DNA of 64,000 nt from Emcibacter sp. SYSU 3D8. GTDB taxonomy: Bacteria > Pseudomonadota > Alphaproteobacteria > SMXS01. Position numbers and translations under genes: made by a program. Under the pieces are notes generated by a model. That model ran no database searches and was not told the origin of the DNA. It worked only from the letters and a program-made list of their open reading frames with translations. The DNA lies in the NCBI RefSeq assembly GCF_039655875.1, contig NZ_JBBYXK010000001.1:186001-250000 (forward strand). The letters are read 5' to 3'. Shown one piece after another: positions 4,903 through 44,389 of this stretch. The number at the start of each line of letters is the position of its first letter. The stretch's first letter is position 1.

Positions 4903-6018
4903 ATGCGATTGAATTTCAGAAGGATTTGCGGAATCGTCGCGGCCATGTCCCTGGCCGCCCTCGCGGCGTGCGAAAGCCGCGACATCGAATACCGCTACGT
5001 ACCGCCCGAGGTGCAGGCGCGGGGGCCAAACGCGCCGTTCCCTGTGCCCGAGCCTGCGGACAAGCCTGACGCTGCCTACCCGATCGACGTGCCCCCGCCG
5101 GTCAAGGCGGCTGTCGGCGTCACCACGCTGGACGATGTACCGGGCGGCGGAACGGCAGCGCCGCCACCGAAGCGCCCGTCCTATGGCGGCAACTCCTACG
5201 CGCCGTCCAAAGCGGCAAAGCCGGTGTCACCGGCACCGTCGGCTCCCGGCGGCGTGCTGGTCGGCAGGACCGTGACCGTGCAGCAGGGTGACACGGTCTA
5301 TGCCATTGCGCGGCGCCACGGCGTCAATGCCCGTGAAATCATTGAACTCAATGGACTGCAGCCGCCGTTCACGCTGAAGATCGGGCAGAAACTGAAAATC
5401 CCGGGCGGTGACCACCATTCGGTGGTTCCCGGCGACACGCTCTACAACATTTCGCGGCGCTATTCCGTCGACATTCCAAGCCTGATGGCCGCCAACGGCA
5501 TCGATGAGTCCCGCGGCATCGTCATAGGCCAGATTTTGGTCATTCCGGCCCGTTCCGGCGACACTCTCGAACCTGCCACGTCGGTCGCCGATGTCCTGCC
5601 GGCCGCCGCCAGCGGCGCTGCCGGCGGCAGTGCATTGGCCGGAGGCTTTATCTGGCCCGTCCGGGGCAAGGTGATTTCCACCTTCGGCGACAAGAAAGGC
5701 GGCATGCGCAACGACGGCATCAACATTCTCGTCTCACGCGGCACCGAGGTGCTTGCCGCCGCACCGGGCACGGTCGCCTATGCGGGGAACGAATTGAGGG
5801 GTTTTGGCAACCTGATCCTGCTGCGCCACGACCGGGGCTGGGTGTCGGCCTATGCTCACAATGACGATATCCTGGTCAGGCAGGGACAGGCGGTCAACCG
5901 GGGCGCGGTGATCGCCCGGGCCGGCGCAAGCGGCCTGGTGAGCAAGCCGCAGCTGCATTTCGAGTTGCGCCAGGGCGCCAAAGCGGTCAATCCCGCGCAA
6001 TTTCTGCCGCCGGTCTGA
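4903..6018 (+). CDS. nlpD: NlpD-type lipoprotein with LysM repeats and degenerate M23 (LytM) domain
   Basis: A 371-residue lipoprotein. ATG 4903 is chosen because it places an Arg-rich n-region and a lipobox (LAALAAC, cleavage before Cys) at the N-terminus. Two LysM modules follow (VQQGDTVYAIARRHGVN and VVPGDTLYNISRRYSVD), then a C-terminal LytM domain ending in LHFELRQGAKAVNPAQFLP. At the first zinc site the usual H-x-G-x-D reads NDGIN, so two ligands are missing. This is expected for NlpD, which activates a cell-wall amidase during division rather than cutting peptidoglycan itself. Context (surE-pcm-nlpD) supports the name. Confidence 0.9.
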   Translation: MRLNFRRICGIVAAMSLAALAACESRDIEYRYVPPEVQARGPNAPFPVPEPADKPDAAYPIDVPPPVKAAVGVTTLDDVPGGGTAAPPPKRPSYGGNSYAPSKAAKPVSPAPSAPGGVLVGRTVTVQQGDTVYAIARRHGVNAREIIELNGLQPPFTLKIGQKLKIPGGDHHSVVPGDTLYNISRRYSVDIPSLMAANGIDESRGIVIGQILVIPARSGDTLEPATSVADVLPAAASGAAGGSALAGGFIWPVRGKVISTFGDKKGGMRNDGINILVSRGTEVLAAAPGTVAYAGNELRGFGNLILLRHDRGWVSAYAHNDDILVRQGQAVNRGAVIARAGASGLVSKPQLHFELRQGAKAVNPAQFLPPV

Positions 6019-6152
6019 CACGCGCCGCCTGTGTCCGGCCTTGTGAAGAGGCCGCAGGTTTCCATGGCGGCTAGCCGATCGTTCCGGATACAGTGGCGGC
6101 GGCTTCAAGCACGCGGCACCAAGCGTGCGCCATGACGAACCGGGGAGGTTCG

Positions 6153-6503
6153 ATGATCGACATGACTGCGCCGCAAGTGCACCCGGTTCGGCCGCCGCGA
6201 ATCTTCGCCTTCATACTCCTGCTGCTGGGCGCCTGCCTCTTGGTCGGCGGGGGACTGCTCGCGCTGCTTGACGGCTCGCCCTATTACGTGATTGCCGGGC
6301 TTGCCTTGCTTGTGTCGGCCATCCTGCTGTGGCGCGGGCGGCGCGCCGGCGCGTGGCTCTATCTGCTGATGCTGATTGGCACATGGGGCTGGGCGCTTTG
6401 GGAAGTCGGACTGGATGGCTGGCAACTGATGCCCCGTGTGTTGCTGTGGACGATACTCGGCCTGTGGCTGCTGACGCCATGGGTGCGGCACCGACTGACC
6501 TGA
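6153..6503 (+). CDS. Membrane-anchor domain of a split PQQ glucose dehydrogenase
   Basis: A 116-residue protein from ATG 6153, four bases after a strong GGGGAGG. Four hydrophobic helices are visible (roughly residues 15-37, 45-61, 66-86, 91-111). The sequence resembles the N-terminal membrane domain of GCD-type glucose dehydrogenase, for example GSPYYVIAGLALLVSAILLW, LYLLMLIGTWGWALWEVG and the closing LTPWVRHRL. Family enzymes have five helices fused to the periplasmic propeller. Here translation stops after helix four, and the TGA overlaps the ATG of the propeller gene (TGATG, 6501-6505). I infer that the two products work together. Confidence 0.75.
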   Translation: MIDMTAPQVHPVRPPRIFAFILLLLGACLLVGGGLLALLDGSPYYVIAGLALLVSAILLWRGRRAGAWLYLLMLIGTWGWALWEVGLDGWQLMPRVLLWTILGLWLLTPWVRHRLT

Positions 6504-8446
6504 TGGGAACCGGACCGATGCGCGTCATTTCCTTCCTGGCTCTCGCCGTCACCGTGCCGGTACTGGCCATCTCTGCCTGGGCGGCCGATGGCGAGTGGCC
6601 TCATTACGGCAACGATCTTGGCGGCAGCCGATACTCTCCGCTGGACCAGATCACGCCGGCCAACATATCCCAGTTGAAACAGGCCTGGGTCTACCGCACC
6701 AATCCGGGGGAGACCCTGAAGTCTCACCTTCAGGTCACGCCGCTGATGGTCGGCGACAGCCTCTATGTCTGCACCGCCACCAATCAGGTGATCGCGCTCG
6801 ATGCCGAAACCGGTGCCGAGCGCTGGCGCTGGGAGCCGGCCGCGCCAAACGACCGTCGCCGCACCTGCAGGGGCGTCACCTACTACAAGGTGCCAGCCGG
6901 CTCTGGCGCATGCGCCGAGCGCATCTTCACCGCCACGGCCACTGCCCAGTTGGTCGCGCTCGACGCGCGCACTGGCAAGCCCTGCGCTGACTTTGGCGAC
7001 GGTGGCATGGTCGACCTGAAGACCGGTATGGGGCAGGTGAAGCCGAATTACTATTACGTCACCTCGGCGCCGGTCATCATACGCGGTCGCGTCGTGATGG
7101 GCGGTTGGGTCGCCGACAACCAGCATGTGGACGAGCCGCCTGGCGTGATCCGGGCCTATGACGCCGTGTCCGGCGCCTTCTCCTGGGCGTTCGATCCGGG
7201 ACGGCCCGAATATCACGGCGAGCCGCCGTCCGGAGAAACCTACACGCTGGGCACACCCAATTCCTGGGCGCCGATGAGTGCCGACGAGGCACTGGGGCTG
7301 GTCTATGCGCCAATGGGGAATGCCACGCCTGACTATTGGGGGGCGCACCGCACCCCTGAATCCGAGAAATTCACCAGCGCGGTGCTGGCGCTCGAGGCCG
7401 AGACCGGCGCGCTGCGCTGGCTCTACCGTACGGTCCATCACGATATCTGGGACTATGACCTGGCCTCCCAGCCGACACTGGTCGACCTGCAGATCGGCGG
7501 CCAGCCTGTACCGGCGCTGATCCAGCCGACCAAGCGGGGGCAGATCTTCGTGCTCGACCGCCGGACAGGGCGTCCGTTGAAGCCAGTGGAAGAACGCGAG
7601 GTGCCGCAGGACCCGGCGCCGGGCGAGTGGCTGTCGCCGACCCAGCCGTTCTCTACCGGCATGCCGGATTTTGCGGGACCCGAGCTGACCGAAAAGAGCA
7701 TGTGGGGGCTGACGCCCTTCGACCAGCTGTGGTGCCGGATCAAATTCCGCCAGGCGCGCTACGATGGCACGATGACTCCGCCGGGCATAAAGCCGACGAT
7801 CACCAATCCGGGTTATCTGGGGGGTATCGACTGGGGCGGGGTATCGGTCGACCCGGTACGCCAGATCATGATCGTCAACTGGAGCCGGATGCCCAACTAC
7901 ACCCAGCTCATCCCGCGCGAGGAAGCCGACCGGATGGGACTGCAGCCCGGCGCCGAGGGTCTGGTCCCCGGCATGCCGCAGGCGCAGGCGGGGACGCCAT
8001 TCGCGGCCCAAACCGGCGCGTTCCTGTCGCCCGTCGGCGTGCCTTGCGTCAATCCGCCCTATGCATCGCTGACGGCGGTGGATCTGGGCACCGGCAAGGT
8101 GATCTGGTCGGAGCCGTTCGGCGAGGCGAGGGACAATGGCCCGTGGGGCATTCCCTCCATGCTGCCGCTGACCATGGGCGTGCCGGCCATCGGCGGGTCG
8201 GTCAGCACGCGGAGCGGTCTGGTGTTCATCGCCGCCAGCACCGAGCGGTCGTTGCGCGCCGTCGACCAGAAGACCGGCGACGTTCTGTGGAAGGCGAGGC
8301 TGCCGGTCGGCGGCCATGCTACGCCGATGACCTACATCTCGCCGTCCAGCGGACGCCAATTCGTGGTGATCGCCGCCGGCGGACATATCGCGCTGGCCAG
8401 CCCGTTCGGCGACTACATCATCGCCTACGCGCTGCCCGGGAAGTAG
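6503..8446 (+). CDS. gcd: PQQ-dependent membrane-type glucose dehydrogenase, periplasmic propeller
   Basis: A 647-residue quinoprotein that would oxidise aldose sugars (glucose to gluconolactone) in the periplasm and pass electrons to ubiquinone. ATG 6503 overlaps the upstream stop; ATG 6518 is an alternative. The N-terminus has a signal-like helix (VISFLALAVTVPVLAISAWA) at the position of transmembrane helix 5 in fused enzymes. Propeller hallmarks include DGEWPHYGNDLGGSRYSPL, TVHHDIWDYDLASQPTL (catalytic Asp region), QPTKRGQIFVLDRR (PQQ-contacting Lys) and GGHATPMTYISPSSGRQFVV. Together with the upstream gene it makes about 763 residues, close to the fused E. coli enzyme (796). No PQQ biosynthesis gene is in the window. 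Confidence 0.88.
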   Translation: MGTGPMRVISFLALAVTVPVLAISAWAADGEWPHYGNDLGGSRYSPLDQITPANISQLKQAWVYRTNPGETLKSHLQVTPLMVGDSLYVCTATNQVIALDAETGAERWRWEPAAPNDRRRTCRGVTYYKVPAGSGACAERIFTATATAQLVALDARTGKPCADFGDGGMVDLKTGMGQVKPNYYYVTSAPVIIRGRVVMGGWVADNQHVDEPPGVIRAYDAVSGAFSWAFDPGRPEYHGEPPSGETYTLGTPNSWAPMSADEALGLVYAPMGNATPDYWGAHRTPESEKFTSAVLALEAETGALRWLYRTVHHDIWDYDLASQPTLVDLQIGGQPVPALIQPTKRGQIFVLDRRTGRPLKPVEEREVPQDPAPGEWLSPTQPFSTGMPDFAGPELTEKSMWGLTPFDQLWCRIKFRQARYDGTMTPPGIKPTITNPGYLGGIDWGGVSVDPVRQIMIVNWSRMPNYTQLIPREEADRMGLQPGAEGLVPGMPQAQAGTPFAAQTGAFLSPVGVPCVNPPYASLTAVDLGTGKVIWSEPFGEARDNGPWGIPSMLPLTMGVPAIGGSVSTRSGLVFIAASTERSLRAVDQKTGDVLWKARLPVGGHATPMTYISPSSGRQFVVIAAGGHIALASPFGDYIIAYALPGK

Positions 8447-8449
8447 GCC

Positions 8450-9319
8450 TCAGCCCAGCGTCCGGCCCATCCGTCCCGCCAGATCCTGGATGAACTGCCA
8501 GGCGACCCGGCCCGAGCGGGCGCCGCGCGTGACCGACCATTCCAGCGCGTCGGCGCGAATCTGCTCCTCGTCGCCGGTCAGGCCATAGCGCTCGCAATAG
8601 CCGGCAATCATCGCCAGGTAATCGTCCTGTGTGCAGGTGTGGAAGCCCAGCCACAGGCCGAACCGGTCGGACAGCGAGATTTTCTCCTCGACCGCCTCGG
8701 CCGGATTGATGGCCGTCGAGCGCTCGTTCTCGATCATGTCGCGGGGCATGAGGTGGCGGCGGTTCGACGTGGCGTAGAAAATCACGTTCTCCGGCCGGCC
8801 TTCCAGGCCGCCTTCCAGAACCGCCTTCAGCGACTTGTAGGTGGTATCGTCGTGATCGAACGACAGGTCGTCGCAGTACAGCACCGCCCGCCGGGTCTGA
8901 TCACGCAGGCCGTGGAGAAGCCGGGGCAGGGTGGGAATGTCCTCGCGGTTGATTTCCACCAGGGCAAGGGCGCCTGGATTGTCGGCGTTGATCTGGGCGT
9001 GGACTGCCTTGACCAGCGAACTCTTGCCCATGCCGCGCGCGCCCCACAGCAAGGCGTTGTTGGCGGGAAAGCCGCTGGCGAATCGCCTGGTGTTGTCGAG
9101 CAGGATGTCGCGTACCCGGTCGATGCCGCGCAGCAGATCGAAGTCCACACGGTTCACCGCAGGCACGGGTGTCAGCCGGTCCGGATCGGGATGCCAGATG
9201 AACGCGTCCGCCGCACTTAGCGACAGCGCCTCGATTGGTGGCGGCGATTGCCGCTCCAGCGCGTCGGCGATGCGCTGAAGCGCGGCAAGGAGTTCGCTGG
9301 AATTGCTTGTTTCGTTCAC
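8450..9319 (-). CDS. DUF815-family AAA+ ATPase
   Basis: A 289-residue cytoplasmic P-loop ATPase. Walker A is GARGMGKSS (residues 93-101) and Walker B is VLYCDDLSF (about 145-153). The closing WSVTRGARSGRVAWQFIQDL is typical of DUF815 proteins. The function of the family is unproven; members are single-domain AAA+ proteins, often near yajC/sec genes in alphaproteobacteria, as here. It is convergent with the glucose dehydrogenase gene (three bases apart) and divergent from yajC. Confidence 0.85.
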   Translation of the reverse strand: MNETSNSSELLAALQRIADALERQSPPPIEALSLSAADAFIWHPDPDRLTPVPAVNRVDFDLLRGIDRVRDILLDNTRRFASGFPANNALLWGARGMGKSSLVKAVHAQINADNPGALALVEINREDIPTLPRLLHGLRDQTRRAVLYCDDLSFDHDDTTYKSLKAVLEGGLEGRPENVIFYATSNRRHLMPRDMIENERSTAINPAEAVEEKISLSDRFGLWLGFHTCTQDDYLAMIAGYCERYGLTGDEEQIRADALEWSVTRGARSGRVAWQFIQDLAGRMGRTLG

Positions 9320-42481: not shown

Positions 42482-44389
42482 GTGTCAGTCATCGCTGCCG
42501 GTCGCCTGATGGCGATGCCGCTTCTTTGCCTCATGTTGCTGGCCGGCCCTGGCGCCCAGGCGGCGCCCGAGGCGCCGCGTGCGTTCAGCGATGCCTACCA
42601 GGGCGTGAAATACGAGCTGGATGCGGAAACGGCAAAGCGGGGCGGCGACATCTATGCGGCGACCTGCGGCGCCTGTCATGACAAGGGCCTGAACCGCGCG
42701 CCGCAAAAAGGCATGTTATCGCTGATGACGCCGGAATCCATCCACCGCGCACTCACCGAGGGCGTCATGCGCGCCCAGGCCACGGGCCTGACCGGGCCGG
42801 ACAAGGTGGCGGTTGCCGAATTCATCGCCGGCCGGAAGTTCGGCGACACCGATACCGCTGGCCCGCTGATGTGCGCCGCCGGCACGTCGGTATTCGATTT
42901 CGGCGAGCCGCCGCCTTACGCGGGCTGGGGTCTGACACCTGCCAGCAGCCACGCGATCAGCACCGAGGACGCCGGCATCGACCGTGTAAACCTGGGAAAG
43001 CTGACCCTCAAATGGTCGCTTGCCTTTCCCAACGCCATTCGCGCCCGATCGCAACCGACGCTTGCGGGCGGCGCCATTTTCGTCGGCAGCCATGACGGGA
43101 CGGTGTTTGCGCTCGACCGCGAGACCGGCTGCACTCGCTGGCAGTTCCACGCCTCTGCCGAAGTGCGCACCGGCATCGTGGTGTCGCCGTGGGAGGCCGG
43201 CGACACGACGGCCAGGCCGCTGGTCTATTTTGGTGACCTCATCGGCAATGTTTATGCCGTCGACGCGGTGACCGGCATGCGGATCTGGAAGACCCGCGCC
43301 GATCCGCACGCCAGCGCCACCATCACCGCTGCGCCGGTATTGCATGGCGAGGCGCTGTATGTGGCCGTGTCGTCGCTGGAAGAGGGGAGAAGCAGCAATC
43401 CGACTTACGAGTGCTGCACCTTCAGGGGATCGCTCATTGCCTACGACGCCCGCACCGGCAAGCGGCAATGGCAGACATTCATGACCGAACAACCCGTCCA
43501 GCAGGGCGTCAACGCGGTCGGGGCCAGGCGCTTCGGGCCGTCCGGTGTGGCGCTCTGGAACTCGCCATCGGTCGACGAGAAGCGCGGCCGTCTCTACATC
43601 GCCAGCGGCGACAATTATTCGTCGCCGACCACCGATCTGAGCGATGCGATCGTTGCCTTCGACATGAAGAGCGGCCGGATCGTCTGGTCATTTCAGGCGC
43701 TGGAGGGCGATGCCTGGAACGGCGCCTGCGACAACATCGACAAGACCAATTGTCCCGAAGAGAACGGGCCGGATTACGACTTCGGCGCGGGCACAGTGCT
43801 GGCCACGGCCAGCGACGGCCGCGACTATGTGCTGGCTGGACAGAAGTCAGGCATCCTGTACGCCATCAATCCCGAAACGGGAAAGCTGGTCTGGGAGACC
43901 AAGGTCGGACGGGGCGGCGTGGTCGCGGGTATCCATTTCGGTCTCGCGGCCTGGGGCGACACGGTGTTCGTGCCGGTCAGCGACGCGCCAGACGGCCGCA
44001 CCTATGGCGAAGCGGCCCGTCCGGGCGTCTACGCCCTGGACATCAAGACCGGCAATTACCTGTGGAAGGCGCCGGCGGTGGACATCTGCAACGGCAAGCC
44101 GTTCTGCCATCCCGGCTATGGCGGTACCATCACCGCGACGCCCGAGTTGCTGTTCGCCGGTTCCAATGACGGCCACCTGCGCGCCTTCGATACGAAAAGC
44201 GGCAAGATCCTTTGGGATTACGACACGGTACGCGACTTCGAGTCGGTCAACGGCGCGCCGGCGCGGGGCGGATCCATGGGGGGCGGCGCCGGGCCGATCA
44301 TCTGGCGCGGCTCGCTGATCATGAATTCGGGCTATGGATTCGTGGGCGCCATGGGCGGGAATGTGCTCATGGTGTTTACGGTCGACTAG
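42482..44389 (+). CDS. Quinohemoprotein dehydrogenase: cytochrome c fused to PQQ propeller
   Basis: A 635-residue exported protein from GTG 42482, six bases after GGGGGAG. A signal peptide (MPLLCLMLLAGPGAQA) is followed by a cytochrome c domain with CGACH (about residues 60-64), then a PQQ beta-propeller (from about 155) with repeats such as GTVFALDRETGCTRWQF and GNVYAVDAVTGMRIWKT. A vicinal Cys pair (ECCTFRG) resembles the PQQ-contacting disulfide. N-terminal cytochrome with a C-terminal propeller is the layout of polyvinyl-alcohol-dehydrogenase-like enzymes; alcohol dehydrogenases of the QH-ADH type have the reverse order. Substrate unknown. Confidence 0.85.
   Translation: MSVIAAGRLMAMPLLCLMLLAGPGAQAAPEAPRAFSDAYQGVKYELDAETAKRGGDIYAATCGACHDKGLNRAPQKGMLSLMTPESIHRALTEGVMRAQATGLTGPDKVAVAEFIAGRKFGDTDTAGPLMCAAGTSVFDFGEPPPYAGWGLTPASSHAISTEDAGIDRVNLGKLTLKWSLAFPNAIRARSQPTLAGGAIFVGSHDGTVFALDRETGCTRWQFHASAEVRTGIVVSPWEAGDTTARPLVYFGDLIGNVYAVDAVTGMRIWKTRADPHASATITAAPVLHGEALYVAVSSLEEGRSSNPTYECCTFRGSLIAYDARTGKRQWQTFMTEQPVQQGVNAVGARRFGPSGVALWNSPSVDEKRGRLYIASGDNYSSPTTDLSDAIVAFDMKSGRIVWSFQALEGDAWNGACDNIDKTNCPEENGPDYDFGAGTVLATASDGRDYVLAGQKSGILYAINPETGKLVWETKVGRGGVVAGIHFGLAAWGDTVFVPVSDAPDGRTYGEAARPGVYALDIKTGNYLWKAPAVDICNGKPFCHPGYGGTITATPELLFAGSNDGHLRAFDTKSGKILWDYDTVRDFESVNGAPARGGSMGGGAGPIIWRGSLIMNSGYGFVGAMGGNVLMVFTVD

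Follow-up and report, generated by a model that had tools for sequence, protein, structure and literature searches.

The membrane-bound PQQ-dependent dehydrogenases closest to the locus described here come in two forms. E. coli Gcd (NP_414666.1, membrane-bound quinoprotein glucose dehydrogenase) is one chain, whereas SldBA (SldAB), the PQQ-dependent polyol/glycerol dehydrogenase of Gluconobacter and relatives, has a small hydrophobic anchor gene, homologous to helices 1-4, immediately ahead of the gene for an exported PQQ propeller. Enzyme activity reportedly requires SldB, going by the titles of Miyazaki 2002 and Shinjoh 2002. Membrane quinoproteins are described as two-subunit enzymes in the review literature (PMC9171043, PMC8102297). 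The two-gene form is thus already known in the TIGR03074-type family, and the linker-free, genus-wide split reported below is a variant of it; among open-licence PMC papers we found none on a linker-free split or on the lineage studied here.

We analyzed 64,000 nucleotides of the genome of Emcibacter sp. SYSU 3D8 (the window, meaning this whole stretch of DNA), in which a short hydrophobic gene directly precedes a PQQ propeller gene. The layout is that of SldBA, and the two domains and the catalytic core are those of E. coli Gcd. Between signal peptide and propeller, however, SldA-type proteins carry a long linker and the window protein has four residues. We are confident that the pair is a natural two-gene member of the TIGR03074 family of membrane-bound PQQ-dependent dehydrogenases, in which a membrane anchor and a sugar- or alcohol-oxidizing propeller normally make up one chain.

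Results and Discussion

An anchor gene and a propeller gene share one profile

The features of the locus are as follows.

6142 to 6148, + strand: SD sequence GGGGAGG of the anchor gene, read from the sequence, with a duplex energy of -11.6 kcal/mol before the ATG at 6153
6153 to 6503, + strand: anchor gene, 116 aa, corresponding to transmembrane helices 1-4 of membrane-bound PQQ dehydrogenases (TIGR03074, genus comparison and dN/dS)
6501 to 6520, + strand: junction, with the stop TGA, the TGATG overlap, a weak SD-like GGGAA (6505-6509) and the probable conserved start ATG at 6518-6520 (junctions of 7 genomes; SD energies)
6503 to 8446, + strand: propeller gene frame, 647 aa, PQQ-dependent dehydrogenase catalytic domain (TIGR03074, PF01011, structural model, catalytic residues)
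6518 to 6583, + strand: signal-peptide-like segment MRVISFLALAVTVPVLAISAWA, positional homologue of helix 5, predicted cleavage after AWA (signal-peptidase-like motif scan; low-confidence model segment 1-28)

In NCBIfam searches the two genes matched complementary stretches of a single profile: the anchor covered TIGR03074 positions 2-98 (E 1.3e-27) and the propeller positions 152-783 (840.8 bits against a cut-off of 832.65), while positions 99-151, comprising helix 5 and the linker, were matched by neither. The propeller also matched PF01011 (797 bits), and the anchor had no match in Pfam. Outside residues 1-28 the AlphaFold model of the propeller was well defined (mean pLDDT 89.4), and Foldseek placed it near PQQ alcohol and methanol dehydrogenases (best E 7e-37, TM-score 0.66). 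In alignment, the window protein keeps D354, N355, W404, D466, K493, N607, and H775 (E. coli numbering), positions which we take to be those of metal, base, and PQQ contacts; the catalytic core is intact. Both open reading frames claimed by a previous sequence-only reading of this DNA are therefore present, and its description of the propeller N terminus as resembling a signal peptide or fifth helix agrees with a signal-peptide-like segment at the helix-5 position. A scan of window positions 5900-8600 for promoters and terminators found none.

A second PQQ-type propeller gene lies elsewhere in the window (42482-44389, + strand); its 635-aa product has a haem c motif, CxxCH, in the N-terminal part, and the best NCBIfam match, far under the cut-off, is a methanol/ethanol-type PQQ dehydrogenase.

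The split is conserved across the genus

TIGR03074 describes a single chain, yet in a search of 60 genomes with junctions read individually, all seven genomes of the window's genus (G000-G006, each assembly a separate species in our collection) carried anchor and propeller as separate genes. The anchor ends in TGA in six of them and in TAG in G006, and every one has a ribosome site between the anchor stop and the propeller ATG. The distance from stop to ATG is 10 nt in G003 and G006, 13 nt in G001, G002, G004, and G005, and 14 nt in the window; since gaps of 10 and 13 fall in one phase and 14 in another, no single frameshift accounts for these junctions. Pairwise dN/dS (Nei-Gojobori, 15 pairs from six genus genomes, without G005, whose propeller is broken up over several contigs) ranged from 0.15 to 0.31 for the anchor and from 0.12 to 0.28 for the propeller, which shows purifying selection on both genes. 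These data establish the coding split, where it falls, and its conservation. G006 additionally carries a conventional fused Gcd-clade enzyme (L010, G006:C82) in the same genome as its split enzyme (L035).

The sequence-only reading had favored a natural split, with a single-base frameshift as the alternative, and alignment of close relatives decides in favor of the former. A one-base frameshift in a conventional fused enzyme, arising either by mutation or as an error of sequencing, would fit the single base shared by the two window frames and the prevalence of fused relatives outside the genus, but it would have to be reconciled with seven split assemblies whose gaps place the propeller in two phases relative to the anchor, with an individual stop, ribosome site, start, and signal peptide in each genus genome, and with purifying selection on both genes. 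We therefore reject it as exceedingly improbable: the split is natural and genus-wide. Just as hard to credit is programmed frameshifting that additionally yields one joined chain. The open frames do overlap upstream of the window junction, but the shift required would differ between species (gap 14 versus gaps 10 and 13), no slippery run was evident by eye at the junction, and helix 5 has its own start codon.

Translation of the propeller

In the window, the anchor stop (TGA, 6501-6503) and an in-frame ATG share one base, A6503. This TGATG, on which the sequence-only reading had centered, does exist but occurs in the window alone among the seven genomes; G002, G004, and G005 have an upstream in-frame ATG one base past the stop. 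The start at window 6518 (MR[VM]I), by comparison, is common to G001, G002, G004, and G005, with a start at a comparable place in G003 and G006. The conserved propeller start is thus probably ATG 6518, 14 nt past the stop, rather than ATG 6503, and because the homologous start in relatives corresponds to 6518, the overlap appears species-specific and maybe is not a used start. The strong start signals previously attributed to both genes hold for the anchor, whose ATG 6153 pairs with the anti-SD at -11.6 kcal/mol (equaled by 0.03% of 3000 random window positions), but not for the propeller: ATG 6503 reaches -1.7 kcal/mol and ATG 6518 -4.4 kcal/mol, values as good being found at 70% and 20% of 3000 random window positions, respectively. 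Matching propeller starts in the six genus relatives pair at -5.6 to -8.1 kcal/mol and have no overlap with the stop, leaving the window species with the weakest propeller ribosome site of the seven. A site this weak would favor restart by ribosomes that have just finished the anchor, and its position 14 nt past the anchor stop makes coupled translation of anchor and propeller likely.

Helix 5 and the sister genus

By the positive-inside rule, we take the loop between helices 4 and 5 to be cytoplasmic and helix 5 to cross the membrane from the inside outward, as a signal peptide does. The cut is thus predicted to lie in the cytoplasmic loop preceding helix 5, and its placement there suggests that this helix has taken on the role of a signal peptide; introducing a stop followed by a new start into this loop would produce both an anchor and an exported propeller in one step. 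Comparison with fused enzymes shows how the intervening region differs. From the helix-4 Pro to the first propeller Trp there are 48-79 residues in 88 of 91 fused rows, including 61 in the single chain of E. coli Gcd, and 29 and 30 residues in two rows from a sister genus (counts in which L070 is an alignment artefact and from which L017, L019, and L146 were left out). We also scanned for signal-peptidase-like sites with a home-made rule (threshold 1.8, site at most 8 residues from the first propeller Trp; L070, L017, L019, and L146 excluded). Ten of 110 rows passed: six split enzymes, the two sister-genus enzymes, and two propellers that lack an anchor. All conventional fused rows stayed below the threshold, L114 and L092 narrowly, at 1.79; SldA-type rows fail because their signal peptide precedes the linker.

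The sister-genus enzyme (L015/L038, L016) therefore resembles the window protein in lacking a linker and in having a signal-peptidase-like site at the same position, and it is the nearest relative outside the genus (97/90). It differs in being one open frame, 757 aa from the ATG in L038, with no stop between helices 4 and 5. Its single AlphaFold model has four confident helices and no confident fifth, with residues 112-133 below pLDDT 50, a low value that may reflect poor alignment there. We tentatively propose, as one possible history, a stepwise split in which the periplasmic linker was lost first, helix 5 became a cleavable signal, the sister genus retained one chain cut by signal peptidase, and the gene was then divided. 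If the sister-genus chain is indeed cut by signal peptidase and the gene was divided later in the window's genus, division of the protein would have preceded division of the gene. The data agree about equally well with the reverse history, a re-fusion in the sister genus of a pair that was already split.

Phylogeny and distribution of split enzymes

Trees were built from 80 of 114 propellers and from 46 of 116, near duplicates being dropped by hand. In the 46-row tree the split genus forms one clade (bootstrap/SH-aLRT 100/99) surrounded by fused enzymes; its closest neighbors are the one-chain enzymes of the sister genus (97/90), and the two together group with fused Novosphingobium enzymes (97/93). 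A different clade (100/100) contains the SldA-type proteins, L150, L151, and the fused L033/L034, and the window propeller is separate from it in the best trees. E. coli Gcd is placed elsewhere, in a distant clade with L010 of G006, so that G006 carries both enzyme types. A distant clade of anchor-free propellers with signal peptides accounts for 5 of 80 rows in one tree and 2 of 46 in the other. In this distant clade, L017, L018, L019, L020, and L036 are propellers that carry a signal peptide, with no anchor gene observed ahead of them.

Constraining all 13 split rows into one clade was rejected (p 6.7e-67), whereas a constraint joining the genus to the whole polyol clade, fused L033/L034 included, was not (AU p 0.194). 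Independent splits are the better, unproven reading of these two outcomes, and the SldBA split was probably independent of that in the genus.

Separate anchors proved rare. With the anchor profile, in a collection of 84,980 species genomes, the best 80 named loci among those scored, rather than among all existing, had the anchor fused in 79 cases and separate in one; at L039 an extra anchor belongs to a second, adjoining fused gene. The sole separate case, L037, is the same contig as genus genome G004. The record of L037 is titled Candidatus Kuenenia stuttgartiensis, a title that looks wrong because the contig belongs to G004. Within the class (385 genomes), 18 genomes yielded 24 anchor matches, and 17 of these lay in frames of at least 750 aa; the remaining seven comprised four from the window's genus and three copies that are broken or incomplete (G415, G042, G329). 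Across the phylum (398 genomes), 81 genomes yielded 112 matches, 106 in long frames, with the other six being the window, the true splits L150 and L151, a disrupted copy (G487), the frame in G651, and a weak unrelated match in G800. That G651 frame (L152, G651:C28) is 493 aa long and has kept the anchor and lost most of the propeller. Among 60 genomes of Acetobacteraceae we saw 11 pairs with a separate anchor, 10 of the SldBA type (exported propeller, long linker), a label that rests on gene layout and family, and one different (L145). L145 (G071:C35), a split enzyme that falls outside the SldBA clade, has both a signal peptide and a linker of its own.

Proposed working of the pair

We propose that the first gene yields a four-helix membrane anchor, at whose stop ribosomes would terminate; translation of the propeller would then begin anew at the start 14 nt further on or at the ATG that overlaps the stop. 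The former helix 5 would serve as the Sec signal peptide of the propeller, which would be exported, probably cleaved after AWA, and would bind PQQ in the periplasm. It would then dock on the anchor and pass electrons to ubiquinone, with cleavage, docking, and quinone use all being predicted steps. The weak propeller ribosome site of the window species counts against this explanation, as do the failure to find pqqC in the family and the distant clade of anchor-free propellers. For the ubiquinone site of the N-terminal domain, we found no relevant paper among open-licence PMC papers.

Two other accounts deserve weighing, one of function and one of ancestry, and we regard both as unlikely to a similar degree. 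The propeller might be a soluble periplasmic enzyme that passes electrons to cytochrome c or another carrier, leaving the anchor as a leftover or with another job. Anchor-free relatives with signal peptides in the same bacterial family (L019, L036, and others) speak for such an arrangement, but they form a distant clade, anchor and propeller adjoin in all seven genus genomes, the anchor is under purifying selection, and the SldBA titles give SldB as needed for activity. As for ancestry, a single split common to SldBA and the other split enzymes, followed by repeated re-fusion, would accord with the AU test, which does not reject a clade made up of the genus and the whole polyol clade (p 0.194). 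Against it, in the best tree the genus sits among fused enzymes, those of Novosphingobium (97/93) and of the sister genus (97/90), and SldA has kept a long linker where the window enzyme has none. A single origin in the form of a clade of split rows only is rejected (p 6.7e-67); the version that includes the fused L033/L034 is not rejected (p 0.194). We thus continue to favor a membrane-docked pair that arose by a split of its own.

Substrate and cofactor

The name glucose dehydrogenase, given to the enzyme by the sequence-only reading, is unsupported. In both the 80-row and 46-row trees the window enzyme falls outside the E. coli Gcd clade, and at the position of His262 of E. coli Gcd, which we take to be a glucose-affinity residue, the alignment has Arg in the window, Arg or Val in split rows, and Pro in the sister genus. 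D-glucose is thus an unlikely substrate, judging from placement and alignment.

The supply of PQQ is a further question. The ten genomes of the window's family (G000-G009) carry several PQQ propeller genes, and pqqC was found in none of the ten; four of five control genomes have it. A pqqE search of the window genome gave background-level matches only, the same as in all 14 controls. With E. coli PqqU as query, we obtained only TonB-receptor-like frames of 24-34% identity, in seven of nine genomes searched. The failure to find pqqC across the family implies that PQQ must come from outside or that the enzyme may be unloaded, and the cofactor probably comes from outside the cell. PQQ synthesis is reported to be common in Alphaproteobacteria and the importer PqqU largely absent (PMC12124388); against that background, the window's family looks unusual.

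Conclusion

Because SldBA already shows that a two-gene form works, the practical weight of this finding is modest. It serves as a warning that such pairs should not be read as frameshifted glucose dehydrogenases, nor glucose assigned as their substrate. The gene content of its members suggests that a whole alphaproteobacterial family may be dependent on imported PQQ. The locus also points to where membrane enzymes of this kind may be divided, namely the cytoplasmic loop before the last helix, since that helix would already have the topology of a signal peptide, and it identifies the sister genus as a candidate intermediate.
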